Part shown: positions 6,617-54,763 of the stretch, in pieces
Position numbering within the stretch: position 1 is the stretch's first letter
Layout of the letters: every line of letters begins with the position of its first letter
Assembly: GCA_039193195.1 (NCBI GenBank)
Contig: JBCCWS010000018.1
Span: 1 to 64,000, forward strand
Length of the DNA: 64,000 bases
Direction: 5' to 3'
Origin: Pseudomonadota bacterium
GTDB lineage: Bacteria > Pseudomonadota > Gammaproteobacteria > Steroidobacterales > JBCBZW01
Program-made: the position numbers and the translations under genes
The notes under the pieces: generated by a model
What the model saw: only the letters and a program-made list of their open reading frames with translations
What the model was told of the DNA's origin: nothing
The model's database searches: none

Positions 6617-6818
6617 GGATCGCCCAGACTGCATCGGGCGCCGCGTTCCGCGAGCGGAGCGCCTTTCCCAATATGTGATCTGGCGCACGCGCCAGGTTTC
6701 TCCCGAGCAATTTGACTCAAGTCGCGCTGATTCGCGCCGTCTATTGGCACAAGCCATAAGGTGCGGTCTGAGCCGCATGCCTTGGCGTGGGCATATTACG
6801 GGGACGGCCTCCAAGAAC

Positions 6819-10762: not shown

Positions 10763-10765
10763 GCG

Positions 10766-15100: not shown

Positions 15101-15453
15101 GCCGCAGCGCTGCGCGCCGGTGGGGCCGTCGCGCGTTGACCTCGCGCCCCGCCACCGCTGTGCGCGCCGCGGCCACGACCGGCGATCGCAGACATCTCCT
15201 CGTAGCTGATGGCGCCGTCGCCGTCGCCGTCAAGGTGCTCGAAGGCGGAGAGCAGGCGCTCGCGGCCGGCGAGTTCTCGGCGCGTCAGCTGGCCGTCGCC
15301 GTTGCTGTCGAGGCGATCGAAGATCATCTGCGGTGACACGCGGCCACCGGCACCACCCTGGGCGCACGCGCTCGATGCGCTGAGCGCACCCACGACCAAC
15401 GTCGCGTACAGAGCGAGCGCCGTCAGTAGGGGCTTTCGGAGCGGATTCGCCAT
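12139..15453 (-). CDS. Secreted EF-hand protein with three alpha/beta-hydrolase domains
   Basis: The 1104-residue product begins with a signal peptide ending near A-C-A-Q. Two EF-hand loops follow (DSNGDGQL and DGDGDGAI, about residues 48-85). Three domains resembling PAF-acetylhydrolase or dienelactone hydrolase come next, at about 135-400, 435-745 and 795-1060, each with the P-x-I/V-x-F-S-H/P strand and a DxH-like late segment. The nucleophile elbows differ: G-H-L-I-G with Leu257, G-Q-C-A-G with Cys572 and G-H-S-Y-G with Ser917. Only domain 3 has a canonical serine hydrolase elbow. Domain 2 could use Cys as dienelactone hydrolase does, and domain 1 is probably catalytically dead. The start has a GAGGAG ribosome site. 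Substrates are unknown; a secreted esterase or lipase-like role is inferred. Confidence 0.8.
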   Translation of the reverse strand: MANPLRKPLLTALALYATLVVGALSASSACAQGGAGGRVSPQMIFDRLDSNGDGQLTRRELAGRERLLSAFEHLDGDGDGAISYEEMSAIAGRGRGAHSGGGARGQRATAPPARSAAASTVDPTAAQPVALPAPRYGTARSAVEVGRGRDAVSLKLSFPLGDGPFPIILFSPYLAGSDQAYQPHHDFFAGQGYVVAELQHDASVGRLSDGNRDALANWRERPEDLAYVLDHLQDIGRRERRLEGKLDLDAVGASGHLIGALGAALMVGATPTSGERYANPQVDAALLLAPQGRGSLMDENSWRDIDRPMMVITGTELPSRRTGNPASWRTEPFRYSQPPDKYLVYVNGMDGRFGGLFDEGGNSSSRFTGVVNAGLESYVLRSELWFWDAHLRGDGEALAALANGQVQGESDGIAEASTRPGSDEPSRVAGGAGGDYVPASGVLPARQERLTLYDRERRREVPVTVYAPSASPLDEGWPVVVFSHGLGESRDSYKYLGNSLASNGYAVIFMNHQGSDAAVARNNFRGLNTVDNAQQKAADTHFVIDQVVADAIDSDLLRGRMDGDRLVAAGQCAGSSIASAMGGLTAKLPGNQRFSSRDDRVDAIMLLGPQVPLGLAQPSRAGNGKGSDMLQPDSWSGIDLPLLVVAGERDFLWYDGVKRNPDVRVTAYTTAVSDEKYLVDLAGGGHHAFTDSTPWYPAGPRNPQHHVQIEKSVMAFLDAYIGGDADALAWLQAQRLEGEGARQEHVSARGPATTALALADTRSYPSSADTPPPAATSWNGADYYKLSRGPYAIDVLTRIDLDDRRRNKQLQVRVTYPRAARQPRPLIVFSHGAWASNENYQPLVEHWVSHGYVVLQANHRDSAALGTTKRDTSVFREWRDRPEDVQLMLDSLDRIEDAAPGLRGMIDRSRIGVGGHSYGAHTAQLVAGTKILDARTQRPVNLGDERVDAALLMSPQGRGALLDERAWDTLQMPMMVMTGSNDPGRGGDGVSWRIDPFVYAASDQKHLLFIDGAYHDFGGATGGTMSGSRAHPDEDIVRYAQSASIAFWDAYLLESAEALGYLQSGAMQQASRGRVTLTQSRADGERISSQHNTRPGRGRGRTRP

Positions 15454-17553: not shown

Positions 17554-17582
17554 TTGTTTCATGTTGCTGAAACCGTTATGAT
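17554..17582 (+). promoter_or_regulatory. Predicted sigma-70 promoter of sphingolipid operon
   Basis: TTGTTT at 17554-17559 and TATGAT at 17577-17582 are separated by exactly 17 bases in a locally AT-richer patch. Initiation near 17589 would give a leader of about 275 bases before the acyl-AMP ligase start at 17864. This is sequence resemblance only. Confidence 0.5.
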
Positions 17583-17590
17583 CTTCCGAT

Positions 17591-17720
17591 TAGTCGTTCG
17601 CATCCTCACCTTGCGAACGGCGCCGGGGGAAGGTCGAAGAACGACGTGCCTGGGTGAGGGGGAGACCATCGGGAGCGCTCCACGGGGAGTTTGATGCCAC
17701 GCCGCGAAAGGCGGTGGGGC
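17591..17720 (+). ncRNA. Candidate structured 5' leader with pseudoknot
   Basis: Just after the predicted start site, CGTTCGCA (17595-17602) pairs perfectly with TGCGAACG (17612-17619), leaving a 9-base loop. The loop segment CCTCACC (17604-17610) is exactly complementary to GGTGAGG (17653-17659), which would make a loop-to-downstream pseudoknot. Between them is a small hairpin, GTCG/CGAC (17633-17645). Downstream are the palindrome GGAGCGCTCC and a stem near 17700 closing a GAAA-containing loop. I do not recognise a known RNA family. It may be a regulatory leader of the sphingolipid operon. Confidence 0.35.
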
Positions 17721-17863
17721 GGGATTTCTTGTGATTGGCGCTATTGGGACTCCAACATAACGGTGCCGCAGCGTTGCTGCCCGCCCACGTTTGATCAACC
17801 GCACGCGCGCGGGCCCACGGCCCAGGCGTAAGCGGTTTGGAAGGACCGAGACTTTAGACACTT

Positions 17864-19633
17864 ATGAACCGTGACGCTGAGCTGACGCCAACGGGATTCA
17901 ACGACGAACTGCCCCTGCGGAGCGATGGCTTCGCCAACCTTGTGGAAGCACTCGACTACGCCGCTCAGGGCAAGGCCGGGTACAACTTCTATGACGGTAA
18001 GGGCGCTTTGGAACATCGCCTCACGCACGCCACCCTGCGCCAGGAAGCGCAGCTGCTGGCGCGCAAGCTGCTCGGCCTCGGCCTGCAGCGCGGTGACCGC
18101 GTCGCCATCGTGGCCGAGACTGATCCGCTGTTCATCCGCTTTTTCTTCGCTGCTCAGTACGCGGGACTGCTTCCGGTGGCGCTGCCCGCCGGCCTGCAGC
18201 TCGGGGGAGGGGAGGCGTGGGTGAGGCAGATCCGCCAGATGCTAATGTCGTGCGACGCGGCGGTGGCCGTGGCACCCGCATCGCACAGCGCGCTGCTCGA
18301 TTCCGCGTGCGAAGGTCTCGACCTAGTGCTCGCTGGCGAAGCCGATGCGTTTGACTCGCTGTCAGCAGACTACAACCTGCCATTCGAACCCTTCACGGGT
18401 GACGAACCGGCCTACCTTCAGTACACCTCGGGGAGCACTCAGTTTCCGCGCGGCGTCGAGGTGTCGCAGTCAGCGGCTCTGACGAATCTGCGAGAGATCT
18501 GCCGGTACGGCCTGAAGCTCACCAGCAGGGACCGCTTCGTCGGCTGGCTGCCCTTCTACCACGACATGGGCCTAGTCGGTTTCGTCCTAGTGCCCCTGGG
18601 CAGCCAACTTTCCGCGGACTATCTCAGCCCGCGCACCTTCGCCATGCGCCCACGCCTGTGGTTGAAGCTGCTTTCCGACAATCGCGGCACGATCTCTTCG
18701 AGCCCACCCTTCGGCTACGCGCTGGTGGCGAAGCGCCTGCGTGTCGCAGACAGCGAGCGCTACGACCTATCTGCATGGCGAGCGGCCTGCGTGGGCGCTG
18801 AGCGCGTGCCTCGTGGTCCGCTCGAGCAGTTCGCAAAGCTGCTCAAGGACGCCAACTTCGATCCGAAAGCCTTCGTCCCCTGCTACGGCATGGCCGAGTG
18901 CGCGCTCGCCGTGAGCTTCGTGCAAATGGACCATGGCGTGAGCATTGACACAGTCGACAAGGTGGAGATGACCGACCAGGGCAAGGCAACGCCCGTCGCC
19001 GCCGATCATCCCGACGACCAAACACTGGAGTTCGTTGACTGCGGCAACCTGCTGCCAAGCTACGAGCTGGCGATACGTGACGACGCCGGTAACGAACTCC
19101 CCGAGCGCACCTGCGGCCGGATCTGCCTTCGCGGCCCGTCCGTGATGACTGGCTACTTCCGCGACCCGGAGGCCACGGCCGCCGTGCTCTCGCAAGATGG
19201 TTGGCTCGACACAGGCGACATCGGCTACCGCATCGGCGAGCAGCTAGTGATCACCGCGCGGCGCAAAGATGTGATCATCATCAACGGTCGCAACATCTGG
19301 CCGCAGGACCTTGAGTACATTGCGGAGAGTTCCCCGAAGGTGCGCATGGGCAACGTGTCCGCCTTCTCAGTGAACGAGGGCGATAGTCCAGAAAAGGTGG
19401 TGATCGTGGTGGAGTCTCGCCACCAAGACGCGGAGTTGGCGGAGGAGATCGTCGAGCGCGTGCAGAAGCAGTTCGGCATTCGCGTGCACGTGGACCTCGT
19501 GCCTCCACGCACCCTGCCGCGCACCTCGTCAGGCAAGCTGTCGCGCTCGCGCGCGAAGCTCGATCACCTCGAGCGTCAGGCCAGTCACGCTCCCGTTCAC
19601 CAGGACTTTGCCACCAGCGGCAGCGTCGCCTGA
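17864..19633 (+). CDS. Fatty acyl-AMP ligase / acyl-ACP synthetase (AasR-like)
   Basis: A 589-residue adenylate-forming enzyme. The AMP-binding signature Y-T-S-G-S-T-Q-F-P-R-G-V lies near residue 187, with the H-D-M-G-L segment and the C-terminal D-T-G-D-I-G and R-K-D-V-I-I-I-N-G-R-N motifs also present. This long family (fatty acyl-AMP ligases) activates a fatty acid and loads it on an acyl carrier protein rather than CoA. The next three genes are a reductase, an ACP and an alpha-oxoamine synthase. In Caulobacter the equivalent AasR charges the dedicated ACP that feeds serine palmitoyltransferase, and the same job is inferred here. The ATG at 17864 is the best start; its ribosome site is weak and an in-frame GTG follows closely. 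Confidence 0.85.
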   Translation: MNRDAELTPTGFNDELPLRSDGFANLVEALDYAAQGKAGYNFYDGKGALEHRLTHATLRQEAQLLARKLLGLGLQRGDRVAIVAETDPLFIRFFFAAQYAGLLPVALPAGLQLGGGEAWVRQIRQMLMSCDAAVAVAPASHSALLDSACEGLDLVLAGEADAFDSLSADYNLPFEPFTGDEPAYLQYTSGSTQFPRGVEVSQSAALTNLREICRYGLKLTSRDRFVGWLPFYHDMGLVGFVLVPLGSQLSADYLSPRTFAMRPRLWLKLLSDNRGTISSSPPFGYALVAKRLRVADSERYDLSAWRAACVGAERVPRGPLEQFAKLLKDANFDPKAFVPCYGMAECALAVSFVQMDHGVSIDTVDKVEMTDQGKATPVAADHPDDQTLEFVDCGNLLPSYELAIRDDAGNELPERTCGRICLRGPSVMTGYFRDPEATAAVLSQDGWLDTGDIGYRIGEQLVITARRKDVIIINGRNIWPQDLEYIAESSPKVRMGNVSAFSVNEGDSPEKVVIVVESRHQDAELAEEIVERVQKQFGIRVHVDLVPPRTLPRTSSGKLSRSRAKLDHLERQASHAPVHQDFATSGSVA

Positions 19634-20569
19634 TTGCACATCGCACTGACCGGGGCGACCGGGTTCATCGGTCGCCGCCTGCAGCAAGCGCTGCTACATC
19701 TCCGCCATCGGCTCACCGCCCTTGTCCGCCCCGCCCAGCACCAACGACGTCCTGAGCTACTAACGGGCATAGAGCAACTTCCGTTCGATCAGCTCGACTG
19801 CGCCGCCTGGCGAGATCTGCTGGATCGTGAGGACGCGCCCGAGGCCGTGATCCTCCTGGCAGGGGCCGTGCGCGGGCGCACCTTCCAGCAGTTTGCGCGG
19901 GTCAACGAGCGACCGTTCACCGCGCTCGCCTACGCCTTGGAAGGGCTAACGGCACCGCCTCGTTTGCTGCTCATGTCCTCACTCGCGGCGACCCAACCAA
20001 GCTTATCGCCCTACGCCGCCAGCAAGCGCGCTGGTGAAGTCGCCCTGAGCGCTCGTTCTGTCACCGTGCTGCGCCCGCCCGCCGTCTACGGCCCAGGGGA
20101 CCGGGAGCTTGCCGGCCTGTTCCAGACGATCCGCCGCGGCTGGGTACCTCGTCCGGGCCCCGTCGATCAGCGCATCTGCTTCCTGCACGTGGACGACCTC
20201 GCCAACGCCGTGGTCGCCTGGCTGCAATGCGCACCGGGACAAGACGACTTGGACCAGACTTTCACCCTGCACGATGGCGCGCCCAACGGCTACTCGTGGC
20301 CAGAGATCGCCGCAGCGATTGCGCCCCACAAGCACGCCCGCATCCTGCCCGTGCCAAAGGCGTTGCTGCACGCGGTGGGGACGGCCAACCTGCTGGCCGC
20401 CACCGCTCTGCGCTACGCACCCATGCTTACCCCTGGCAAGGCTAGAGAGCTGGGTTACCCTCGCTGGCTCTGCGATAATCGCGCCTTTACCGAAGCCACC
20501 GGCTGGGAGCCGGCAGTGGATTTGGCCACTGGCACGGCGCGCCTGAGGAACGAGACGAACGATGACTGA
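19634..20569 (+). CDS. NAD-dependent epimerase/dehydratase-like reductase (CerR-like)
   Basis: A short-chain dehydrogenase of the extended type, 311 residues. The N-terminal nucleotide-binding motif T-G-A-T-G-F-I-G (residues 6-13) and the catalytic Y-A-A-S-K motif are visible. It starts with TTG immediately after the stop of the ligase gene and overlaps the ACP gene by eight bases. Caulobacter CerR, from the same family and the same gene set, reduces 3-oxo-sphinganine or 3-oxo-ceramide to the 3-hydroxy form. That reaction is inferred from the neighbours; the sequence alone only supports an extended SDR. Confidence 0.8.
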   Translation: MHIALTGATGFIGRRLQQALLHLRHRLTALVRPAQHQRRPELLTGIEQLPFDQLDCAAWRDLLDREDAPEAVILLAGAVRGRTFQQFARVNERPFTALAYALEGLTAPPRLLLMSSLAATQPSLSPYAASKRAGEVALSARSVTVLRPPAVYGPGDRELAGLFQTIRRGWVPRPGPVDQRICFLHVDDLANAVVAWLQCAPGQDDLDQTFTLHDGAPNGYSWPEIAAAIAPHKHARILPVPKALLHAVGTANLLAATALRYAPMLTPGKARELGYPRWLCDNRAFTEATGWEPAVDLATGTARLRNETNDD

Positions 20570-20798
20570 GATCGAGCAGACCCTGAGCCAGCTGCTGCAC
20601 GGCTTCCTGAGCGCGGAGCAGAAGATGATCGACGCGGCCACGCCCATCAACACCCTTGGGCTCGAGTCAGTGGTGATCATGCAGTTCGTCGCTGAGGTGG
20701 AAGATCACTTCGATATCAACATCGATCTCGATAGCTTGGCGCAGATTCATACGCTCGGCGATCTAGCGAAGGTCGTCGTGGCGCAGGGGGACGTATGA
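20562..20798 (+). CDS. Dedicated acyl carrier protein
   Basis: A small acidic protein of 78 residues with four-helix ACP character. The phosphopantetheine site is L-G-L-E-S, so Ser36 should carry the prosthetic group; the usual D-S-L is E-S-V here. The segment after the site, I-M-Q-F-V-A-E-V-E-D-H-F, matches helix II of carrier proteins. It overlaps the genes on both sides (ATG within the reductase end, ATGA with the synthase), so it is translated with them. It probably presents the acyl chain to the serine palmitoyltransferase-like enzyme. Confidence 0.85.
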   Translation: MTEIEQTLSQLLHGFLSAEQKMIDAATPINTLGLESVVIMQFVAEVEDHFDINIDLDSLAQIHTLGDLAKVVVAQGDV

Positions 20799-21985
20799 GC
20801 CTATTGGAAAAGTTCGCCCAGCCGCGCGCAAAGCGCGACGCCCTGGCGAAGACGCCCATCAACCCAGTGGCGGTGCCCATCGAGCGGGCGATCGACGCGA
20901 CCACCGCGCAGATCGATGGCCGCGAAGTCATCATGGCCGGCACCAACAACTACCTAGGACTTACCTTCGAGCAAGAGTGCATCCAGGCAGGGCAACAGGC
21001 CCTGGCGGAATTCGGCACGGGCACCACTGGTTCGCGTGTGGCAAATGGCAACTACACCGATCACGAAGCACTCGAGGCTGACTTAGCAGAATTCTTCGGC
21101 TACCCCTACTCCATGCTCTTTTCGACGGGCTACAGCGCCAATCTCGGCACCATCGCTGCACTCCTTGGACCAGGTGACTGCGTCATGCTCGACGCCGACG
21201 CTCATGCGAGCTTGTACGATGCGTGTCGGCTGTCCGGTGCGGATGTCTTTCGCTTTCGCCACAACGACCCCATCGATCTAGATAAGCGCCTGCGCCGCTT
21301 AGGCGAGCGCGCCAAACGCACCTTAGTGGCCATAGAAGGACTGTACTCAATCCTTGGCGACTACCCCGCTCTCGAGCCCTTCTGCGACGTCTGTGAGCGC
21401 TACGGCGCCTTACTGCTTGTAGACGAGGCGCACTCGCTCGGCACGATGGGAGCTCATGGAAGGGGCTTGGCGGAGGCGGATGGCGTTCTCGATCGGGTCG
21501 ACTTTCTCGTCGGCACCTTCTCCAAGAGCCTCGGCGCCACGGGCGGCTTTTGCGTGAGCCGCCACGAGGAGCTTTCCCTGTTTCGCTACACCTCGAGGCC
21601 CTTCATCTTCACCGCCTCTCCCTGCCCCTCCGTGGTGGCGAGTACGCGTGCCGCCCTGCGGCTCCTGCGCTCCCAGCCGGAGCGCCGCGAACGGCTCTGG
21701 CAGCATGCTCACGGCCTATATGAGAGATTCACGGCGCTTGGCCTGACGCTCGGGCCACAGCCCTCACCAGTAGTCGCCGTACGCTGCCCGAGCGCGGAAG
21801 CTGCCCTGGGTGTTTGGCAGCGACTGCTCGAACACGGGGTATACACCAACCTCATCGTGCCCCCCGCCTCACCCGATGGTTCCAGTCTGATCCGCTGCAG
21901 CGTGAGCGCGGCACACACTCACGCCCAAGTGGAAGCGATCAAGTCCGCGATGGCCGCGGCCACGGCAGACCTCATCGCCGCCTAG
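20795..21985 (+). CDS. spt: Serine palmitoyltransferase-like alpha-oxoamine synthase
   Basis: A PLP enzyme of 396 residues from the KBL/BioF/HemA/SPT family. His137 (D-A-H-A-S) would stack on the cofactor, D210-E-A-H-S holds the pyridine nitrogen Asp, and Lys244 in G-T-F-S-K-S-L-G should form the Schiff base. The family condenses an amino acid with an acyl thioester. The partners (acyl-ACP synthetase, ACP, CerR-like reductase and a ceramide synthase-like gene nearby) argue for serine plus acyl-ACP giving 3-oxo-sphinganine, not biotin or threonine metabolism. It is the last gene of a four-gene coupled operon. Confidence 0.82.
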   Translation: MSLLEKFAQPRAKRDALAKTPINPVAVPIERAIDATTAQIDGREVIMAGTNNYLGLTFEQECIQAGQQALAEFGTGTTGSRVANGNYTDHEALEADLAEFFGYPYSMLFSTGYSANLGTIAALLGPGDCVMLDADAHASLYDACRLSGADVFRFRHNDPIDLDKRLRRLGERAKRTLVAIEGLYSILGDYPALEPFCDVCERYGALLLVDEAHSLGTMGAHGRGLAEADGVLDRVDFLVGTFSKSLGATGGFCVSRHEELSLFRYTSRPFIFTASPCPSVVASTRAALRLLRSQPERRERLWQHAHGLYERFTALGLTLGPQPSPVVAVRCPSAEAALGVWQRLLEHGVYTNLIVPPASPDGSSLIRCSVSAAHTHAQVEAIKSAMAAATADLIAA

Positions 21986-21993
21986 ACCCTTGG

Positions 21994-22962
21994 TCAGCGA
22001 AAGGCGCCGAGGCGATAGAGACGCCAGAACAGAGGCCAGGCGAACAACAGCGGCCAGCGGCGCTGCAAGGGCGTGGGCTCCACGTATATGCCGGAGTGGC
22101 GCTCGATCTTCCACAACAAGTACTCGAAGCCGTCGTTGAAGGTGAACGCTGCCTTGAGCAATCGGGCAACGCTCAAGGCCTTGCCCCACAGCCTGCGCGC
22201 GGGCCACCGCCAGCCACCTGGTGACGCGGCGAGCGGCCAAGAGGACCGGTTCCCTTCCACTCGCGGCTGCTCTGCGCTCCACGCTTGCGCGAGCTGCACG
22301 AAGTACGCGTGATCGCGCTCCACCAACTGTCCAGCGCGCAGCCCGCTCTCGGCGCGCAGCTCACACCGATAGGTCTGGGATAGAGCGTGCTGCCATAGGG
22401 CCTGCGGCGTTGGCGCACAGTGCGGCATGCCTCGCTGTGCTTCCGTGAGCATTCGCCTGACGGCATTGGCGAGACACACTACTAGGCGCGTCGCCGTGCC
22501 CGCGTCGGCCACGTAGAGTACCTGGCAGGGCTGCGCGAAACGAGCCCAAAAATAGGAGTGAAAGTCCTCTCGCAGATGGCGCTCGAAGGCCGCGAGGGGC
22601 ACCAGAGCGTACTTGCAACGGGCGCCGGTCGCCACGCCGAGTTGGTACACATTCGGCGCGAGTATGCGGTTCGCGAAGCGCTGCCAGTGCGGCAAGGCTG
22701 CGGTAGGCACGGGGCCCTCCGTCAGCACGTAGAGATCGATTAACGTATCGCGCTCGCCTCGCGTGTAGGAGCCGTACAGGAGCACTGCCCGAAGGCTGTC
22801 ACCGTAGCGGACACGCAGCGCCGCGAACAGGGTACCCAGATCTTCATCCTGCTCCAGCAGCGCCATCGAGCCGACTGCCCCCTCTGCCAGGCCGATCCTA
22901 GCACCTATGAGATTCGCTAGCTCAAATGAGGGTACCGAGTCAGTGGGCGGAGGGAGCGCCAT
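21994..22962 (-). CDS. Degenerate nucleotidyltransferase-like protein
   Basis: The 322-residue protein contains a minimal nucleotidyltransferase-like motif, G64-S-Y-T-R-G-E followed by L74-I-D76-L. In active members this is G-S-x-A-R-G...S-D-x-D-L, so the first metal-binding Asp is Leu here. The rest is a helical region rich in Trp and Arg with no recognised domain, ending in a hydrophobic stretch (PLLFAWPLFWRLY) that may contact membrane. It converges tail to tail with the spt operon and its start overlaps the end of the CDP-alcohol phosphotransferase gene by 23 bases, which ties it to lipid headgroup metabolism. The function is unknown. Confidence 0.65.
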   Translation of the reverse strand: MALPPPTDSVPSFELANLIGARIGLAEGAVGSMALLEQDEDLGTLFAALRVRYGDSLRAVLLYGSYTRGERDTLIDLYVLTEGPVPTAALPHWQRFANRILAPNVYQLGVATGARCKYALVPLAAFERHLREDFHSYFWARFAQPCQVLYVADAGTATRLVVCLANAVRRMLTEAQRGMPHCAPTPQALWQHALSQTYRCELRAESGLRAGQLVERDHAYFVQLAQAWSAEQPRVEGNRSSWPLAASPGGWRWPARRLWGKALSVARLLKAAFTFNDGFEYLLWKIERHSGIYVEPTPLQRRWPLLFAWPLFWRLYRLGAFR

Positions 22963-24166
22963 CAGCCTGCTGCGCGCTCCCGTAGGCAGAACGCGTCCCT
23001 GAGAAACGACGGAAGGCCTGGGGATGGGTCGAGCGCGCCTGCGCCGGATCCATCAACCAGGAGCGGACAGGACCCTCGCGCCAGCGCCACCACGCTGCCT
23101 GGAGCAGCCTCAGGAACAACAGCGCCGTGCTGACGAGGGTCCATAGGACCACGGCGTAGAAGCCCCAGTCCGGCCGCTGCGCAAGCACGGAAGCGCTCAG
23201 CAGGATCAGACTTGGGTTGCGCCGGGCGGTGACCAGTCGGTTGTACGCATCAAATGGTCGCCAGGCAAATAGAGAGCATTCCCCGAGGATGTCGAACAGC
23301 CCCTCGGCGATCCGACCGCCCACGTAGCCGAGGAGCACCCACAGACTCCAGGTGGCGAGCGAGACACCCCACAGCGGCTCCGCCCCCCCACCGGCTAGGG
23401 ACACCCCCCAGAAGACGTACCAGAACGGCGGATGGAGGATGTCCATTCCATGATCCAACGCATGTCCGAGCTTGGACGACTGAACGGTCACCCGTGCGAG
23501 CTTGCCGTCCACTGTGTCCAGGAAGGTCATGATCCAGCCGCTCACGAGGCCGAGGACGTACTGCCCCTGGTAGAACCACCAACAGCTCGCCAACATCAAC
23601 GCGAAGCCCGTCAGCGTGACCATGTTCGGCGTGATGCCTAACCTCGCGCACCACCCCACCACCACACGGGCTGGACGCGGCCACCACCACTTGGTGACCA
23701 GATCCGTGATGCCCTTGTAGGAGTTGCCGTAGAGCACGCTCTCCAAGCGCTCCTGAGAGGAGGCGTCGACCCTCGCCAATAGGGGGGGCTCGGCCTTGCG
23801 AAGCATGCCGTCGAAGGCATTGAGATCGCCCGCCTCGAGCACCCTCAGCCCCTGGGGCTGCTGCTCGACCAGCGCCGCGCGGCCACGGGGCGCATCATCA
23901 CCCGCGACCAGCGCGGCTGCGAGGCCTCCGTCGTCACTCGCCCGTAGCGCATGGCCTGGCCCGGCCTCGTGAAGACCCTCGAGCGTGCGCAGCTCAAACA
24001 GATACCCCGCGTGTACTACGAGCAGTGGATGCTCTAGTGGCGACTGTGGCAGTCCCTCGAGCAATTCGAAGGCGGTGAATTGCCGCAGCTGACGCGCCAC
24101 ACGGGTGGTCGCTTCCAGGCCCCAAAGCGGCACCGCCGCCCGGCCGACTATGTGCACGTAGATCAC
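22940..24166 (-). CDS. CDP-alcohol phosphotransferase with N-terminal extension
   Basis: About 408 residues. The C-terminal half is a CDP-alcohol phosphatidyltransferase: D-T-V-D-G-K-L-A-R, eight residues, then G-H-A-L-D-H-G-M-D matches the D-x2-D-G-x2-A-R-x8-G-x3-D-x3-D metal and CMP site exactly, with several membrane helices around it. The N-terminal 190 residues recall the nucleotidyltransferase half of bifunctional IPCT-DIPPS proteins but lack the G-x-G-x-R loop, so they look degenerate. Such enzymes transfer a phospho-alcohol from a CDP-alcohol. The acceptor or donor could be a ceramide species, from context. The start is uncertain: GTG at 24166 avoids overlap with the divergent gene, but the frame is open to 24331. 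Confidence 0.8.
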   Translation of the reverse strand: MIYVHIVGRAAVPLWGLEATTRVARQLRQFTAFELLEGLPQSPLEHPLLVVHAGYLFELRTLEGLHEAGPGHALRASDDGGLAAALVAGDDAPRGRAALVEQQPQGLRVLEAGDLNAFDGMLRKAEPPLLARVDASSQERLESVLYGNSYKGITDLVTKWWWPRPARVVVGWCARLGITPNMVTLTGFALMLASCWWFYQGQYVLGLVSGWIMTFLDTVDGKLARVTVQSSKLGHALDHGMDILHPPFWYVFWGVSLAGGGAEPLWGVSLATWSLWVLLGYVGGRIAEGLFDILGECSLFAWRPFDAYNRLVTARRNPSLILLSASVLAQRPDWGFYAVVLWTLVSTALLFLRLLQAAWWRWREGPVRSWLMDPAQARSTHPQAFRRFSGTRSAYGSAQQADGAPSAH

Positions 24167-24251
24167 AGTGTTATCGTTCGCTTTAATTGCGCTTCGCTGG
24201 CGTTCGTACCTGACTCGAAGCAAACGCCCAAGTATAACGCGTCCCCTGCCC

Positions 24252-25142
24252 ATGCCCTTCACGCTCGCCCATCTAAGCGACACGCACACCACGGACCTTC
24301 GCGGCGTGCGTCCCGCCCAGCTGCTCGGCAAGCGCCTGCTCGGCTATCTGTCCTGGCGGCGTCGGCGGCGCTACGAGCACAGCACGCGCATGCTAGAGGC
24401 CAGCGCTGACGCCGCCCTTGCGCATACCCCTGATGCGATGGTAATTAGCGGCGATCTGCTGCACATCGGCCTAGCCGAGGAGATGCGACAGATCCGCGGC
24501 TGGCTCGAGTCTCTACGGGCAAAGCTGCCCGTGTTTTTGGTGCCCGGCAATCACGACCTGTACCGCGCCGATTCCGTGGCCTGGTGGCAGCGCGAGCTAG
24601 GTGACCTAGATCTCTTCGGCGCGCCGCTTACGGATGCCCCTTGGCCCCGAACGCTGCTACTTGCCGGTGCCCGCCTGATCGGCCTCAACAGCGCCTACGC
24701 GGCGCCCCTGACTCGGGCAGATGGGTACCTCGGCGCCGAACAGCTCGAGGCCCTGCGCATGGCCTTGGCCGAGCCTTGCGATGCACCGACGGTGCTAGTT
24801 GTTCACCATCCTGCAGACTCATCGCTGTGCGCCGCGCGCAAGGCCCTGCGCGATGCCGCCGCGCTCGCCGAACTCCTGCACGAGCACCCGCCAGCGCTGC
24901 TGCTCCACGGCCACCTGCACAAGCCGCTCGCCTACCGCGTGGGCACCGTACCATGCTTCTGTGCGCCGTCCGCCTCGAGCGAGCATGAGCATCATCGTGC
25001 AGGTTTTCACCTGTTCCGCTTACCCCCAGACCCGGCCGCTCCTGTGGACGCCAGACTGTACCTAGCGGATGCGGCATGCGCGCCCTGTGGCTTCACCTCT
25101 CAGACCCGCTCGATCGGCAGCCCGTCGACCGTCCCAGTCTAA
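24252..25142 (+). CDS. Calcineurin-like metallophosphoesterase
   Basis: The 296-residue protein shows the complete two-metal phosphoesterase motif set: L-S-D-T-H near the start, S-G-D-L-L, P-G-N-H-D, V-V-H-H-P and H-G-H-L-H. It probably removes a phosphate or cleaves a phosphodiester. It is the only plus-strand gene among the headgroup genes and is divergent from the CDP-alcohol phosphotransferase across about 85 bases. By analogy with bacterial inositol-lipid pathways, it could dephosphorylate a phospho-headgroup intermediate; this is inference. The ATG at 24252 is chosen because D-T-H then falls at the usual distance from the start. No signal peptide is seen. Confidence 0.82.
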   Translation: MPFTLAHLSDTHTTDLRGVRPAQLLGKRLLGYLSWRRRRRYEHSTRMLEASADAALAHTPDAMVISGDLLHIGLAEEMRQIRGWLESLRAKLPVFLVPGNHDLYRADSVAWWQRELGDLDLFGAPLTDAPWPRTLLLAGARLIGLNSAYAAPLTRADGYLGAEQLEALRMALAEPCDAPTVLVVHHPADSSLCAARKALRDAAALAELLHEHPPALLLHGHLHKPLAYRVGTVPCFCAPSASSEHEHHRAGFHLFRLPPDPAAPVDARLYLADAACAPCGFTSQTRSIGSPSTVPV

Positions 25143-25164
25143 CCGAACATTCCTAACGTCTTCG

Positions 25165-26250
25165 CTAGTGTTCGCTCAAGCGCCAAAGCCACACGCCCAG
25201 CAACATCAGAATGATCATCTCTGGCGCGAGGGATAGGAGCACCGGGTGCAAACGGTAAATCACCGCCAGGTGCACGCTCACTTGCTCCACGAGGTAGAAG
25301 GCAACACCGGCGATCACACCAAAGGTCACGCGCTCGCCGATCGGTAACACGCGCGTGTTGCCGAAGACGAAGGGCAGTGCCAGCAGCATCATGGCGAGGG
25401 CCGCCAAGGGCAGACTCAGCCGCTGCCACAGCAACACGCGTAAACCGTGTACATCGAGGGCGTTAGCGCGTGCGTGGGCGATCCGCGCGGCGAGATCGTA
25501 GAGGCCGAGGGACGCGGCCGGCGCACTCAGGGTGTCAAGGCCACCGATGGGGAGGTCTACGGCGCGTGCCTCACCGACCACGCGTCGATCTGCCGCAGGC
25601 TGGCCCTGCGCCACAGCGAGCACACGCACATCTTGCAGCTGCCACTGCTGGCGATCGATTACGCGCGCCGAGGCCGCCTGACGCACGCTCACCAATGAAT
25701 CATCCTCGAACGCGTAGATCTCCACGTCCTGCAACAGCCCCCCGTTGCGTTTACCGTCAACGCGAATGATCTGTTGGCGACTGCGGGTCCAGAAGTCTGC
25801 CTCGGGGTCCGGGGAGTCGGCCGCAGCCTGCACCCCTCCCACGTCCGCTTTCTCGCGCAGACGCTGGGCCTCGCGTTCCGCCGCGGGAACGATGAACTGG
25901 GCCGCCAGCAGCAGCACGACACCGACTGCCAGCGCCGTCAGAATGGGGCCTCGCATAAGTTGCAGTGGGGACCGACCAATCGCCCGCGCTGCGGTGAGTT
26001 CGCTATGACCTGCAAGCCCTCCGATACCGATCAGGGCACCCAGCAACAGCATCACCGGCAGTAGATCGAGCAGACGATTCGGCAAGGTCAGACTAATGAC
26101 CACCAGCGCATCGGTGGCGCTATAGAGCCCCTTGCCTACGTCCTCGAGCTCCTCCGCCAAGGCGAGGAAGCTGAACAGGGCAAGGAGCATCAAGGTCACC
26201 GGCAGCAGGGCCTTGATCATGCTGGTCACTAGGTAGATGTTCAGCCGCAC
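25165..26250 (-). CDS. LptG/LptF-family permease (second of pair)
   Basis: An inner-membrane permease of the YjgP/YjgQ (LptF/LptG) family, 361 residues. It has an N-terminal helix set, the conserved early region with A-L-I-G-I-G-G-L-A-x-x-S-E-L-x-A-x-R-A-x-G, a periplasmic beta-jellyroll middle domain and C-terminal helices. It starts with GTG overlapping the stop of the previous gene by one base. LptF/LptG with LptB extract lipopolysaccharide and pass it to LptC/LptA. No LptB, LptC or LptA gene is present here, nor the pepA gene often found next to lptFG. It lies among sphingolipid genes, so it may be either the housekeeping pair or a paralogue for another lipid. Confidence 0.85.
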   Translation of the reverse strand: MRLNIYLVTSMIKALLPVTLMLLALFSFLALAEELEDVGKGLYSATDALVVISLTLPNRLLDLLPVMLLLGALIGIGGLAGHSELTAARAIGRSPLQLMRGPILTALAVGVVLLLAAQFIVPAAEREAQRLREKADVGGVQAAADSPDPEADFWTRSRQQIIRVDGKRNGGLLQDVEIYAFEDDSLVSVRQAASARVIDRQQWQLQDVRVLAVAQGQPAADRRVVGEARAVDLPIGGLDTLSAPAASLGLYDLAARIAHARANALDVHGLRVLLWQRLSLPLAALAMMLLALPFVFGNTRVLPIGERVTFGVIAGVAFYLVEQVSVHLAVIYRLHPVLLSLAPEMIILMLLGVWLWRLSEH

Positions 26251-27302
26251 TAGAGCTTACCGCCACGCCACGGCTTATACGCAACCACCACCGCAGCCGT
26301 GAGCAAAGCGGGCACCCAGAAGATGCTCGATAGGCGCTCCTGCTCCACCCAGGTGCGCGCCATGCCGATCAGGATGTAGTACACGGCGTATACCCCAACG
26401 GCGATCATTACCTTCGAATAGCGACCCTGGCGCGGTAGGCTGTGGCTGAGGGGTATCGCCAACAAGGCGAGCAGCATCACCGAGAGCCCAGTCGACAGAC
26501 GCCACTGGTACTCGGCTTGATCGTCACCCACGGTGGACTGCGCTAGGACAGCAGAGGTGGCCGACTTCGCCTTGTAGGGAGGCCTTTGCGGCACGGCCGC
26601 TGCAAGGGTCAGGCGTAGGGCGGAGAACTCGCCCACCACGTCGAACTCACCGTCTTCGATGCGAAAGACCCGCGCGTTCTCAAGCTGCAGCTCGTGATCG
26701 GTGGGGGTCACGAACTCCTCCACGTGCCCGCGTGCCGAGGCGATCACCTCCACCCGGTCGGCGACCCGCGTGCGAACGAAGATACCGCGCAGATCGCCCG
26801 CTTGCTGGCCACGGGCACGCACGTATACGGTGCGATCCTGATCCTCGTAGTGATAGAACTGTCCAGGTTTGATGCGCTCAAGCTCATCGCTAGCCTCCGC
26901 CTCAGCTTTCAACTGGTAGATGCTCGCGTAGGCCCAGGGTCGCACCACCAGGGAACCGACGGCGGTCACCAGCGCAACCACCAAGGCCAATGCGACGATC
27001 GGGCGCATGAGGCGAGGCCGCGACAGGCCGGCGCTGCGCAAGGCATCCATCTCACTGTCGCTGTACAGCTGACCTAGGCCGACCACGATCGCCACGTAGA
27101 GGCTGATCGGAATCAACACCTCTAGGGCGATGATCCCGCGCAGGGCGGTGATCCGCAGCACCTCGGACATGCTGAGCAGGCCCGTAGCCGCATCAGTCAG
27201 GAAGCGAGTTAGGCTGTAGGTTACGAACAAGGCAACGAACAGCCCGATGATGAGCAACATCGGGCTGGCGATGTGCCGGGTGATGTAGCGGTCGACGATC
27301 AC
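26250..27302 (-). CDS. LptF/LptG-family permease (first of pair)
   Basis: A 350-residue permease of the same family as its downstream neighbour, with an N-terminal M-I-V-D-R-Y-I-T-R-H start typical of LptF, the G-L-G-Q-L-Y-S-D-S-E-M-D-A-L-R-S-A-G motif before the third helix, a periplasmic jellyroll (about residues 125-245) and three C-terminal helices. It would sit in the inner membrane and form a heterodimer with the next gene product. It follows the HIT gene by 16 bases in one orientation with the nucleotidyltransferase gene, which suggests shared transcription with headgroup genes. Confidence 0.85.
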   Translation of the reverse strand: MIVDRYITRHIASPMLLIIGLFVALFVTYSLTRFLTDAATGLLSMSEVLRITALRGIIALEVLIPISLYVAIVVGLGQLYSDSEMDALRSAGLSRPRLMRPIVALALVVALVTAVGSLVVRPWAYASIYQLKAEAEASDELERIKPGQFYHYEDQDRTVYVRARGQQAGDLRGIFVRTRVADRVEVIASARGHVEEFVTPTDHELQLENARVFRIEDGEFDVVGEFSALRLTLAAAVPQRPPYKAKSATSAVLAQSTVGDDQAEYQWRLSTGLSVMLLALLAIPLSHSLPRQGRYSKVMIAVGVYAVYYILIGMARTWVEQERLSSIFWVPALLTAAVVVAYKPWRGGKL

Positions 27303-27318
27303 GCGGCAGCCAGGTGAA

Positions 27319-27744
27319 TCACCAGCGGGCGCGCAGGTCCGTGATCAGCGCCTCGTTCTGCGCGGGAGTCATTGCGATGGGGTCGCCGAGGGCTGGCAAG
27401 GCCGGCCAACCCGCATCGGCGAACTCGATGTCAGCGAAGCTGCGGGGGACGGAATATCGCGGTATCACGTGGTAGTGCACGTGCGGGTCTACCATCATCA
27501 GCATCAGGTAGTTGATCTTCTCGTACTGCACCCACTCGCCCAGCACGCGCTCGATATCGGCGACTGCCTGGTGTTGCTCGGCGATCGACGCCGGCGACAG
27601 ATCGGAAAAGCGAGTGGCCTCACTGCGCGCGGCGAGCACCAAGGAGCCGAGCGTGACCTGCTTGGGACGCAGCAGCACACACCAGTGCTCGTACTCGTGG
27701 ATGAGCGTCTGGGGATAACCAAACTTGGTCATCGTCTCGTTCAT
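27319..27744 (-). CDS. HIT-family hydrolase
   Basis: A small protein of 141 residues with the histidine-triad signature H-V-H-Y-H-V-I-P near residue 95. The second His of the triad forms a nucleotidyl intermediate, and the family hydrolyses or transfers nucleoside monophosphates from dinucleotides, nucleotide sugars or adenylates. The ATG at 27744 is preceded by GAGGAG and AAGGGCGAG and avoids overlap with the upstream gene; the frame itself extends to 27810. Its place between a cytidylyltransferase-like gene and LptF suggests work on a nucleotide-activated headgroup, but this is inference. Confidence 0.8.
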   Translation of the reverse strand: MNETMTKFGYPQTLIHEYEHWCVLLRPKQVTLGSLVLAARSEATRFSDLSPASIAEQHQAVADIERVLGEWVQYEKINYLMLMMVDPHVHYHVIPRYSVPRSFADIEFADAGWPALPALGDPIAMTPAQNEALITDLRARW

Positions 27745-27772
27745 CTCGCCCTTACTCCTCGGTTGGCTAGGC

Positions 27773-28504
27773 TCACGGGCTTGGCCAGGTCGCGACCACC
27801 TTGGCCGCATGCGCTAAATCGGCCGCATCATCGACCTCGCACCAGCTTAGGCCTTCGATCGAACACACGCCGACGTGGCCCTGCGGCGCCAACGCATCGA
27901 TCGCAGACAGGTACCAGCGCTTTAGACCGCTCTCGTCGCGCATCATTCGATCGAGTTGGGCGCTGAAGACGGCAGGACCGTCGCCGCGAAAGGTCATCAG
28001 TCCAATCGATTCGGCGTTGACGGGGGCATCGCCAAGCTGCTTACCGACGCGTTCCAGGCGCCCCCCCTGCTCCACCACCTTCATGTCGTCGTCGTCGTAC
28101 TCACCCTTGCGATCGATACAGAGGGTCACCGCGTGATCGGCAGGCGAGTCGAGCAAGCGTTGCAGGACCGCTGCCTCAAACAAGGTGTCGCCGTTCATGA
28201 TGACGAACTCTCCCGTCATCTCCGGGCGCGCCAGCCAGCAGGTGCCGAGGTTGTCGCAGGCCGCGTAGAAGGGGTTGTGCGTAGTCCTCACTGCCACTTC
28301 GGTAAACGCTTGCGTGATCGCCTCGACCACGGGCGCGCGGAACCCGGTCATTACCACTACCTGATCGATGTCGGTCTGGGCGATCTGGCTCAGCTGCCAC
28401 TCGAGGGCGGTGCGGCCGGCGACATCAAGGGCGCACTTCGGCGTGTTCTCCGTCAGGGGAAGCAAGCGTCGCCCCTGGCCGGCGCTGAGAATGATGGCTT
28501 TCAA
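27773..28504 (-). CDS. Phosphocholine cytidylyltransferase-like NTP transferase
   Basis: The protein has 243 residues, with the classic sugar-phosphate or alcohol-phosphate nucleotidyltransferase start A-I-I-L-S-A-G-Q-G-R-R-L-L-P-L-T and the P-K-C lysine motif. N-G-D-T binds metal in the middle, and E-V-D-D near the end is the second metal site. The short length and the D-N-L-G-T-C-W-L segment resemble the LicC/phosphocholine cytidylyltransferase and inositol-1-phosphate cytidylyltransferase group. It starts with TTG, with GGAG five bases before it. It is a plausible source of the CDP-alcohol used by the phosphotransferase encoded at 22940-24166. Confidence 0.82.
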   Translation of the reverse strand: MKAIILSAGQGRRLLPLTENTPKCALDVAGRTALEWQLSQIAQTDIDQVVVMTGFRAPVVEAITQAFTEVAVRTTHNPFYAACDNLGTCWLARPEMTGEFVIMNGDTLFEAAVLQRLLDSPADHAVTLCIDRKGEYDDDDMKVVEQGGRLERVGKQLGDAPVNAESIGLMTFRGDGPAVFSAQLDRMMRDESGLKRWYLSAIDALAPQGHVGVCSIEGLSWCEVDDAADLAHAAKVVATWPSP

Positions 28505-28602
28505 CGCATCTCCTGCAATTCAGCTCGACGAAAGCCCGCCAAGATAGCATGGAAGAGCTGTTGCTTTCACCGCGAGCCAGCGTCTGCAAGGACCCGGCCG
28601 AG

Positions 28603-29601
28603 CTAGAGAATAAGGAATTCCGGCGCCCAGTCGGCATCGACGGTCAACGCCTCGGCAGGAGCAGCGAACACTTCGCCATCGATCGCATAGCTTGCGGGCT
28701 GCTGCGCCTTGCGCTCGCTGGCGAAGCTGAGCTTTAAGCGCGTGCAATTGTGGCTGTGATAACCGGCGTCAGCGCCCGGCCGGCCCAGCCCCGGCAGGCC
28801 CAGCAATCCGCCCAAGTGGCGAAGCAGGCGTGCCGAGCGCTCGACCAGCGTGAAGCGCACGGCGCCGCTCTCCGCGCCCCAATGGGGACGTGCGCCGACC
28901 AGCAGTCTATCGAGGGTGGAAACGGCGAGCACAGTAGCACCCGTGCTAGGCGCCAAACGTATCGCTTCACTCTCCCGCTCGCCGAAGGCCTCCAAGGCGA
29001 GCGGCAAGGGCGAGTCGAAGGGCGCCTCCGCCCGCAGCACGCCGAGCACGGTCCGTGCCATGGCGAGGCCTGCGGTCAGTTCGCGGCGTGCGGCACCCTC
29101 AGCCCACAAGCGACGATTGCAGTAGTCGATGCCCTCCACCACGGCTCCGGCGCCGAGGAAGAAACCCGCTTGGACGCCGCTCGCTCGATGCACCCTGAGC
29201 ACGGGCCTTCGAACAAAGGTCGACGCCTGCGGCCCGTCCTTCGCCACCTGGGCGAGCACAGCCGCAGCAGCGGACCAGCGATGGTGGCGGTTGATATCCC
29301 GCGCCGACATGTTGGTGGAGCCCCCTGGGAGCACGGCGAGGCGCGGACAAGGCAGGCCCCGCTCGTGCCGTTGTGCGAGCAACGATAGGAGCCACTGGAG
29401 ACTGCCGTCACCGCCGCTGATGGCGATGAGATCTTCGTGAGTGCCGTCGAACTCATCGACCAGCACCGATACGTGCTCTGCGTTCTGCGTGAGAATCGAG
29501 CGCAAGTTGGCGGCGTCGGGCAACAGCGCCCGTAGGGCGTCGGCGCGCCCCGTCTTACCTCCGGCGCCGGCATTGCATAGGCACAGCAGGCGTACCGTCA
29601 T
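28603..29601 (-). CDS. Diacylglycerol/ceramide kinase-family lipid kinase
   Basis: The 332-residue protein belongs to the DAGK catalytic family. S-G-G-D-G (residues 62-66) is the nucleotide loop, L-P-G-G-S-T-N (91-97) takes the place of the usual L-P-x-G-T-x-N, and A-I-D-G-E near the C-terminus is the conserved acidic site. The family phosphorylates lipid hydroxyls with ATP. Because the gene is coupled by ATGA to a nucleotidyltransferase and lies one gene from a ceramide synthase-like gene, ceramide or a sphingoid base is the likely substrate, as for the Caulobacter kinase of the same family. Diacylglycerol cannot be excluded. Confidence 0.8.
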   Translation of the reverse strand: MTVRLLCLCNAGAGGKTGRADALRALLPDAANLRSILTQNAEHVSVLVDEFDGTHEDLIAISGGDGSLQWLLSLLAQRHERGLPCPRLAVLPGGSTNMSARDINRHHRWSAAAAVLAQVAKDGPQASTFVRRPVLRVHRASGVQAGFFLGAGAVVEGIDYCNRRLWAEGAARRELTAGLAMARTVLGVLRAEAPFDSPLPLALEAFGERESEAIRLAPSTGATVLAVSTLDRLLVGARPHWGAESGAVRFTLVERSARLLRHLGGLLGLPGLGRPGADAGYHSHNCTRLKLSFASERKAQQPASYAIDGEVFAAPAEALTVDADWAPEFLIL

Positions 29602-30398
29602 TCGTCCTGTTCAGCGGGTCGGTCGCGCAGCACTTGTGCCGCTAGGGTGTAGTCGGCAGGGGAGTCCACATCGACGGCCAGCTCCGCGCTGTCCAGCAGC
29701 ACGGCCCGAATCGTCGCCTCGCAGCGTGAGCCTATGTGCGCGAGGGCAGCATCGCGGGTCAATAGCCCGGCGAGGTAGCGTGCCAGCACCAGGGGACCTA
29801 GCTTGTACGCCATACGCGGGGGGTGCTTGCGCAGGGCCTCCAGCGACTGCCAGAAACGCAGCGCGCGCAGGGCGCCAGGTGTGCGCAAGTAGAAGAGATT
29901 GCTGCCGCAGCAATCACCGTCCTGAAAGCGCAGCCAGGTGCGTTGGTTGTCGGGGAATCGCTCGCGCACTCGATCGGCTGGCACCAAACCGACCACCACA
30001 TCTGCCGAGGCCAGCGCCTGCGCCTTCGCGCAGAACTCGCGTACGGTGGAAGGCCGCAGCAGCGCGTGGTCGGCGCTGGTGAGCAGCAGCGGCCAGGTGC
30101 CTGCGCGCTCGGCGCCGGCGATCGCACTCGCGGCCGGTCCTGGCGCCGGAGCCACCCAGTCCACTTCCTCCCGCTCGCTCCACCGGCGCACTGCGGGGCT
30201 CTCGGACAAACCGTTGCCAGGTCCCACCAGCAGCATGCGCTCGATGCCGCTGTTGGCGATAGCGGTCAACGCCCAGTCGATCAAGGCGCGCCCTTCCAGA
30301 TCCATCAGCAAGGCGCTTCGAACGCCGCGGGCACGGGCCAGTGCGTTACCTCCAGGGCGTTCCCCGGCTAACACCACCGCGATCGGTGGCAGGCTCAC
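29598..30398 (-). CDS. MobA-like NTP transferase
   Basis: About 266 residues with a GT-A nucleotidyltransferase fold: an N-terminal V-V-L-A-G-E-R-P-G-G-N loop, L-L-T-S-A-D-H-A-L-L as the metal-binding centre, and D-V-D-S-P-A-D-Y near the end, which is typical of MobA/IspD-like transferases. The start is set at a GTG that overlaps the stop of the ceramide synthase-like gene (GTGA); longer forms would lie inside that gene. It overlaps the kinase gene by ATGA. A role in activating a headgroup precursor is inferred; the nucleotide and alcohol are unknown. Confidence 0.75.
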   Translation of the reverse strand: MSLPPIAVVLAGERPGGNALARARGVRSALLMDLEGRALIDWALTAIANSGIERMLLVGPGNGLSESPAVRRWSEREEVDWVAPAPGPAASAIAGAERAGTWPLLLTSADHALLRPSTVREFCAKAQALASADVVVGLVPADRVRERFPDNQRTWLRFQDGDCCGSNLFYLRTPGALRALRFWQSLEALRKHPPRMAYKLGPLVLARYLAGLLTRDAALAHIGSRCEATIRAVLLDSAELAVDVDSPADYTLAAQVLRDRPAEQDE

Positions 30399-31543
30399 AG
30401 GTCGCACGAATACATGCGATAGCGCTTTGACACCCTGCCACCGATCGACTCGATGATGCTGCGCATGCCGTCGTTCGACTCCAGGATCCAGGACAGTTCC
30501 GAACGGGCTACACCCCTGGCGATCGCCGGCTCCTTGAGCGAATGGATGAGGGCGAAGGAGAGGCCAGGCCCTAGGCGGGTGTGGTGGAACTCGCTGCGCA
30601 CCCCCATGAGCGGTACCCGCGCACTGCGCAGGGGCCCCCGCTTTAAGCGCCACAACAGCTTCGCCCACCCGAAGGGCAGCAGGGCGCCATCGAGATCCGC
30701 AATGTGGGCGTTGACGTTGGGCAGCAAGACGATGAAGGCCACCCCGCGCCCATCGATCTCCGCAATCCTAAGGAAGTCCGCGGGAGTGATCATCAACATC
30801 TCCTTGCCCACCGTGCGGAACTCCTCTTCCGTGAACGGCACGAAGCCCCAGTTCTCGGACCAGGCGTCGTTGAAGATGTCGCGCATCAGTTCGAGCTCAT
30901 CGTCGAGCTTGCGCTTGTCGATGCTCCGCAAGGTCAGCCCCTTGAGGTAGCGCTTGCGCAGGCGCTCATGGACGGGCGGGACTACGTAGCGCTCGGTATC
31001 GATCTCGTAGGCCAACATGTCTTGGGTACCGGCGAAACCCGCCGCCTCAATGCGAGTCCCATAGTAGGGGCGGTGGTGCCCCATCATGAAGTAGGGTGGG
31101 CTGTCAAAACCGTCCACCAGCACGCCCACCTCCTGATTCACATTGAGGTTGAACGGACCGAGGACGCGGGTTCGCGCTCGCTCGCGAAGCCAGCCCTTGG
31201 CCGTCTCGAAGAGCGCGTCGAAGTACGCTTGGTCATCTGGGGCTTCGAGCATACCGAAGAAGCCGACGAACTCCCCGTAGCGCTCCTCGTAGAGCGAATC
31301 GATCTGCGCCGTGATCCTTCCCACGGGGGCGCCCGCCTGGTCGTAGGCCACCCAACCCTGCCACTGCACGTGGTCGAATACCGGCGCCTTGGGCGAGAGG
31401 GCGTCCTTGCGCTCGAAGCGCAGGGGAGCGATCCAATGAGGGTCGTCTCGGTAGAGTGCCCAGGGCACACGTACGAAGTCATCCAAGGTGGCGTTGCCGG
31501 CGCCACGGCCCGCCCCTTTGGGCGCTAAGGGTCTGATCTGCAT
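30395..31543 (-). CDS. Bacterial ceramide synthase-like GNAT acyltransferase
   Basis: The 382-residue protein has the layout of the large GNAT-like N-acyltransferases identified as bacterial ceramide synthase: an N-terminal D-F-V-R-V-P-W-x-L-Y-x-D-D-P-x-W-V/I-x-P-L segment, a G-R-I-x-A-x-I-D motif, then P-F-N-L-N-V-N-Q-E-x-G and a C-terminal GNAT-like half ending in E-L-S-W-I-L-E-S-N. In Caulobacter this family transfers an acyl chain to 3-oxo-sphinganine. It leads a three-gene coupled unit with the NTP transferase and lipid kinase. The ATG at 31543 gives the family's usual start; the frame is open further upstream, but that part is Arg/Pro-rich and dissimilar. Confidence 0.75.
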   Translation of the reverse strand: MQIRPLAPKGAGRGAGNATLDDFVRVPWALYRDDPHWIAPLRFERKDALSPKAPVFDHVQWQGWVAYDQAGAPVGRITAQIDSLYEERYGEFVGFFGMLEAPDDQAYFDALFETAKGWLRERARTRVLGPFNLNVNQEVGVLVDGFDSPPYFMMGHHRPYYGTRIEAAGFAGTQDMLAYEIDTERYVVPPVHERLRKRYLKGLTLRSIDKRKLDDELELMRDIFNDAWSENWGFVPFTEEEFRTVGKEMLMITPADFLRIAEIDGRGVAFIVLLPNVNAHIADLDGALLPFGWAKLLWRLKRGPLRSARVPLMGVRSEFHHTRLGPGLSFALIHSLKEPAIARGVARSELSWILESNDGMRSIIESIGGRVSKRYRMYSCDL

Positions 31544-40248: not shown

Positions 40249-40338
40249 GGTATTCCTCGGTTTCAGTAGTTAGGACGCGCCCCTAGTTGGCGCGAGAGTC
40301 TACCGCAGGCGCAGCTTCGGCGCGTTACCCGCCACCCA

Positions 40339-42063: not shown

Positions 42064-42086
42064 TCGTCTTCGCCCAAGCGCACCAC

Positions 42087-43709: not shown

Positions 43710-43812
43710 ATCGTCCTTGCCGTTGCACGTGTGAGGGCGCCGCGCGGGCGCACCGTCGTTGGTTGGCGAAGCCTGTCCTTGAGCCCGGCGATTCTACCAG
43801 CTGGCCTCGCCC

Positions 43813-46235: not shown

Positions 46236-46246
46236 TGGTGAGCGTG

Positions 46247-49853: not shown

Positions 49854-49857
49854 TGCC

Positions 49858-50700: not shown

Positions 50701-50739
50701 CGGACGCCATCCAAGCGACGGCGTTGCGCGGGCGAACGC

Positions 50740-51561: not shown

Positions 51562-51633
51562 CAGTTCACTTCCGGTTCACGAAGCCGCTCCGCCCACTGG
51601 GGGCTGCGGTGCGTTCCTGTCCACGAGTCAGGC

Positions 51634-53361: not shown

Positions 53362-53430
53362 GGTTGTGCATCTCCTACAGAGTTAAACGTAAGGTGGCGT
53401 TCGCGCGTGAGCACCAACGCCCTGACACTG

Positions 53431-54744: not shown

Positions 54745-54763
54745 GCTAGGACAGTCGCCCCCC

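Follow-up and report, generated by a model that had tools for sequence, protein, structure and literature searches.

A contiguous CPG2-type sphingolipid gene cluster with an LptF/LptG pair in a gammaproteobacterium

The window, the 64,000-nucleotide stretch of DNA analysed here, contains a block of approximately 14 kb in which 14 genes lie between positions 17,864 and 31,543. The block is taken to start at 17,864 because positions 17,554-17,863 carry no assigned gene. Family assignments were made with Pfam and NCBIfam profiles, and start codons were read from the sequence, with likely starts at 31543 for CerS, 30398 (GTG) for the CofC-like protein, 27744 for the HIT protein, 24252 for the metallophosphoesterase, and 24166 (GTG) for the CDP-alcohol transferase.

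17864..19633, plus strand: aasR, fatty acyl-AMP/ACP ligase (Pfam AMP-binding, 1.9e-52; NCBIfam fatty acyl-AMP ligase, 711 bits, cut-off 600)
19634..20569, plus strand: cerR, NAD-dependent epimerase/dehydratase, ceramide reductase candidate (Pfam Epimerase, 7.8e-18)
20562..20798, plus strand: acpR, dedicated acyl carrier protein (PP-binding, 1.4e-11)
20795..21985, plus strand: spt, serine palmitoyltransferase (NF047599, 560.5 bits, cut-off 500)
21994..22962, minus strand: cpgC-like, Tam41-like nucleotidyltransferase, predicted ceramide-1-phosphate cytidylyltransferase (family alignments A1/A3; profile match to Tam41, 6ig2, E 5e-5)
22940..24166, minus strand: cpgA-like (CC_1159-like) CDP-alcohol phosphotransferase, start GTG 24166 (PF01066, 4.4e-11)
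24252..25142, plus strand: metallophosphoesterase, CC_1158-like (PF00149, 3e-13)
25165..26250, minus strand: lptG2 (PF03739, 1.9e-61; TIGR04408 above cut-off)
26250..27302, minus strand: lptF2 (PF03739, 1.2e-65; TIGR04407 above cut-off)
27319..27744, minus strand: HIT-family protein (PF01230, 9.1e-5; intact HVHYHV triad)
27773..28504, minus strand: cpgD-like cytidylyltransferase (PF12804, 1.5e-11)
28603..29601, minus strand: cpgB-like ceramide kinase, DAGK catalytic domain (PF00781, 2.2e-13; GGDG motif; alignment A2)
29598..30398, minus strand: CofC/MobA-like nucleotidyltransferase, CC_1153-like, start GTG 30398 (PF12804, 3.1e-10)
30395..31543, minus strand: cerS, ceramide synthase candidate (conserved neighbourhood only)

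The plus-strand operon aasR-cerR-acpR-spt (17864-21985) converges with a minus-strand pair, CDP-alcohol transferase/cpgC (24166-21994), and the plus-strand metallophosphoesterase starts 85 bases from the divergent start of the CDP-alcohol transferase. A second minus-strand operon (31543-25165) follows the order cerS, CofC-like gene, cpgB-like gene, cpgD-like gene, HIT gene, lptF2, and lptG2. The coupling by overlapping stops and starts that was originally predicted holds for six gene pairs (cerR/acp, acp/spt, cerS/cofC, cofC/cpgB, lptF/lptG, and CDP-alcohol transferase/cpgC). The profile E-values, together with the linkage conserved across other genomes, rule out a chance grouping. Other parts of the window were noted as well. 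Positions 89-12133 encode a 2175-residue protein with cadherin/RTX repeats and, after it, two ABC transporters and an HlyD adaptor, likely a type I secretion set; next comes a 1104-residue protein with an EF-hand and two alpha/beta hydrolase-like regions (12139-15453). Positions 37813-54906 hold an exosortase locus with an XrtD/VPLPA-CTERM exosortase (TIGR04152, 601 bits, cut-off 400), glycosyltransferases, and homologues of chain-length determinants and kinases.

In Caulobacter crescentus, the CC_1168-CC_1152 cluster (which includes CCNA_01210-01219) holds five genes for ceramide and six for phosphosphingolipid, plus duplicates of LptC, LptF, and LptG that were proposed to function in transport; the product of this LptF2/LptG2-carrying cluster is the anionic sphingolipid ceramide diphosphoglycerate (CPG2) (PMC11324152). 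Thirteen of its genes have a counterpart in the window by family, profile, and order, namely aasR, cerR, acpR, spt, cpgC, cpgB, the CDP-alcohol transferase, the metallophosphoesterase, lptF2, lptG2, cerS, the CofC-like gene, and cpgD (PMC11324152, PMC12275187). The HIT gene could add a fourteenth, as the counterpart of CC_1157, a gene whose mutants lacked high co-fitness with the Caulobacter cluster and which was called probably unrelated (PMC11324152). At another locus (L141), a HIT gene occupies the CC_1157 slot and the remaining order is Caulobacter-like. Compared with Caulobacter, the window cluster lacks LptC2 (CC_1168), CC_1167, and the CC_1166 flippase, has its cpgB and cpgD within the cerS-lptFG operon, and shows a rearranged gene order. 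The exact combination, which the original prediction did not recognise, was already known: judged by family, profile, and gene order, it matches the published CPG/CPG2 gene set, of a kind described in 2021-2025.

Plasmid p1318-4 of Roseomonas marmotae (L049) shares with the window acpR, spt, cpgC, cpgB, the CDP-alcohol transferase, the metallophosphoesterase, the HIT gene, LptF/G, cerS, the CofC-like gene, cpgD, and aasR. It differs in being plasmid-borne and alphaproteobacterial, in the placement of its LptF/G on another tree branch, and in having no cerR within the fetched stretch. The clusters of Azotobacter vinelandii and Pseudomonas luteola are, like that of the window, contiguous, gammaproteobacterial, and without CC_1166-1168, whereas they were reported to lack the CC_1158 metallophosphoesterase that the window has (PMC11324152 Fig 7). 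Sphingolipid clusters were also observed on Pseudomonas and Diaphorobacter plasmids (L046, L047, and L048); the plasmid location and the nearby transposases make the pathway look mobile.

The headgroup genes, the HIT gene, and the LptF/LptG pair of the original prediction are all present, and its two or three nucleotidyltransferases number three (the CpgD-like, the CofC-like, and the Tam41-like CpgC proteins). By family and order, the CpgB-like, CpgC, CpgD-like, CDP-alcohol transferase, and CC_1153- and CC_1158-like genes are all found together here. Activities of CpgB and CpgD and mutant phenotypes are available from the Caulobacter studies (PMC11324152, PMC10331486, PMC12275187). The CpgB-like protein is only ~30% identical to the fetched homologues beyond its own genus, and its GGDG motif is one that was pointed out in Caulobacter CpgB (PMC10331486). 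No Pfam family is specific to CpgC; the Tam41 family (PF09139) gave no match over the cut-off for CpgC and none in the genome, and a profile built from 28 CpgC sequences gave a distant top match to Tam41. A single-sequence structure model of CpgC reached a pLDDT of 41 and was not used for a fold search. A CDP-DAG-synthase domain had earlier been remarked in CC_1161 (PMC11324152), and the CpgC mechanism was described as unidentified (PMC12275187). The profile match to Tam41, a CDP-DAG synthase, favours a CDP-ceramide step. The cpgC gene neighbours spt in many genomes, and the metallophosphoesterase orthologues of L045 and the Roseomonas plasmid occupy the matching slot.

The CpgD-like protein is 52% identical to its Roseomonas homologue. 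Its best match in the PDB is the CTP:phosphocholine cytidylyltransferase 1jyk, and 4jd0, the enzyme closest by structure to Caulobacter CpgD (PMC12275187), was also matched. The translated CDP-alcohol phosphotransferase contains the motif DxxDGxxARx8Gx3Dx3D, and its best NCBIfam matches, which fall below the cut-offs, are archaetidylinositol-phosphate and PI-phosphate synthases. These matches would be expected if the pathway logic were kept and the CpgD-like and CDP-alcohol enzymes used another phospho-alcohol, such as inositol or choline phosphate. Such a headgroup is nevertheless unlikely, as the full CPG2 gene set is present, including the CofC-like gene and the metallophosphoesterase, and Caulobacter CpgD, which sits structurally beside inositol-phosphate cytidylyltransferase, uses phosphoglycerate (PMC12275187).

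Synteny, named at the outset as a check on the locus, is conserved in other genomes, including Roseomonas p1318-4, L141, and 40 loci seeded with CpgC. Hits to the CpgC profile came from 20 of the 369 genomes sampled for the class and from 27 of the 398 in the phylum sample. Near CpgC in the 40 loci, CpgB was found in 33, LptF, LptG, and CerS in 27 each, the CofC-like gene in 24, the metallophosphoesterase in 19, the CDP-alcohol transferase in 14, CpgD in 10, and the HIT gene in nine. The HIT gene was accompanied by the CDP-alcohol transferase in eight of its nine loci (Fisher 3e-4) and by CpgD in seven (Fisher 2e-4), and the metallophosphoesterase by the CofC-like gene in 17 of 19 (4e-4); these p-values serve as guides only, the loci being interrelated and some of them truncated at contig ends. 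The window HIT protein has a 54% identical counterpart in the Roseomonas cluster, and at L045 no HIT gene was found between lptF and cpgD. The position of the HIT gene varies from locus to locus, which argues against simple hitch-hiking. A search for CpgB in the L045 genome, run with no positive control, gave nothing.

A separate LptF/LptG pair is encoded elsewhere in the genome, on contig C17. The genome also encodes LpxC, so lipid A is probably made, and both LptF and LptG of the window exceed the cut-offs of the LPS-export equivalogs TIGR04407 and TIGR04408, as would ordinary LPS export machinery located here by happenstance. Such an origin is nonetheless highly improbable, since the C17 pair groups with those of its order in the trees while the window pair clusters with pairs linked to sphingolipid clusters, and LptF and LptG recur beside CpgC at the frequencies given above. 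The cluster pair is the sole LptF/G in eight of the 15 surveyed CpgC-bearing genomes (G428, G718, G706, G730, G797, G799, G704, and G318). One of these, G318 (locus L120), consists of a single contig and comes from the class of the source organism. No LptC2 was found in the window cluster, and a single LptC was found genome-wide, on contig C1; the published gamma- and betaproteobacterial clusters likewise lack LptC2 (PMC11324152). The alpha- and gammaproteobacterial copies of LptF/G separate in the trees with high support, the class of some genomes being assigned from named neighbours, and a separate origin of the cluster LptF/G in the two classes is favoured by these trees; an AU test run with fewer LptF rows did not reject a single origin (p 0.105).

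Of the five homologues of the ceramide route that were predicted within 14 kb, four are present by profile, and the fifth, CerS, is a candidate assigned by neighbourhood. The aasR, cerR, acpR, and spt genes form one operon, as in Caulobacter-type ceramide synthesis loci; AasR shows 60-62% identity to the copies of L044 and L045, where the gene order is alike, and the cerR slot between aasR and acpR is conserved in other loci. An Spt-seeded scan of genome contigs recovered only two loci. A Kbl/BioF-type identity of the synthase, with unrelated neighbours, is refuted by score and synteny: the PLP fold is common to these enzymes and the models for Kbl and BioF also give matches, with lower scores, but the protein passes the Spt equivalog cut-off (NF047599) and not those of Kbl or BioF, its best PDB relative is Sphingomonas Spt (2x8u, 382 bits, compared with 225 bits for Kbl), and the linkage is conserved. 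The product of 30395..31543 has no Pfam or PDB match, and it is considered a ceramide synthase candidate from its conserved neighbourhood; homologues in sphingolipid loci are 41-57% identical, and that of L141 adjoins lptG2 and the CofC-like gene, as does CC_1154 in Caulobacter (PMC11324152). On the Roseomonas plasmid, the CerS-like gene (20614-21765) is annotated as ‘dATP pyrophosphohydrolase’, which is probably a misannotation.

By analogy with Caulobacter, it is quite likely that the locus makes, and probable that it exports, a phosphosphingolipid of the CPG/CPG2 type. AasR would charge AcpR with a fatty acid, Spt would condense the AcpR-bound fatty acid with serine, and CerS and CerR would complete dihydroceramide. 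The CpgB-like kinase would then yield ceramide-1-phosphate, which the Tam41-like CpgC would probably convert with CTP to CDP-ceramide. The CpgD-like enzyme would supply CDP-glycerate, which the CDP-alcohol phosphotransferase would use for headgroup extension, and the CofC-like enzyme and the metallophosphoesterase would assist in headgroup steps of unspecified order. LptF2/LptG2 would act as a second, lipid-dedicated Lpt permease that draws the lipid toward the outer membrane; it would have LptC in common with LPS export, and probably also LptB and the bridge. The originally proposed phospho-headgroup sphingolipid, made through a CDP-alcohol, is supported by analogy, as the homologous Caulobacter cluster has been published for this synthesis; so is transport to the outer membrane, since LptF/G-like export was proposed for the same cluster (PMC11324152, PMC10331486, PMC12275187). 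A broader reading, possible but doubtful as a whole, has CpgC as a ceramide-1-phosphate cytidylyltransferase forming CDP-ceramide, the HIT protein as an enzyme dedicated to nucleotide intermediates in the CPG2 module, and LptF/LptG as recruited to sphingolipid loci separately in alpha- and gammaproteobacteria.

The locus extends the CPG2-type cluster, with its parts nearly all contiguous, to another large-genome lineage. The association of the HIT gene suggests an overlooked gene, and the locus offers testable leads on the function of CpgC and on sphingolipid export by a second LptF/LptG pair.
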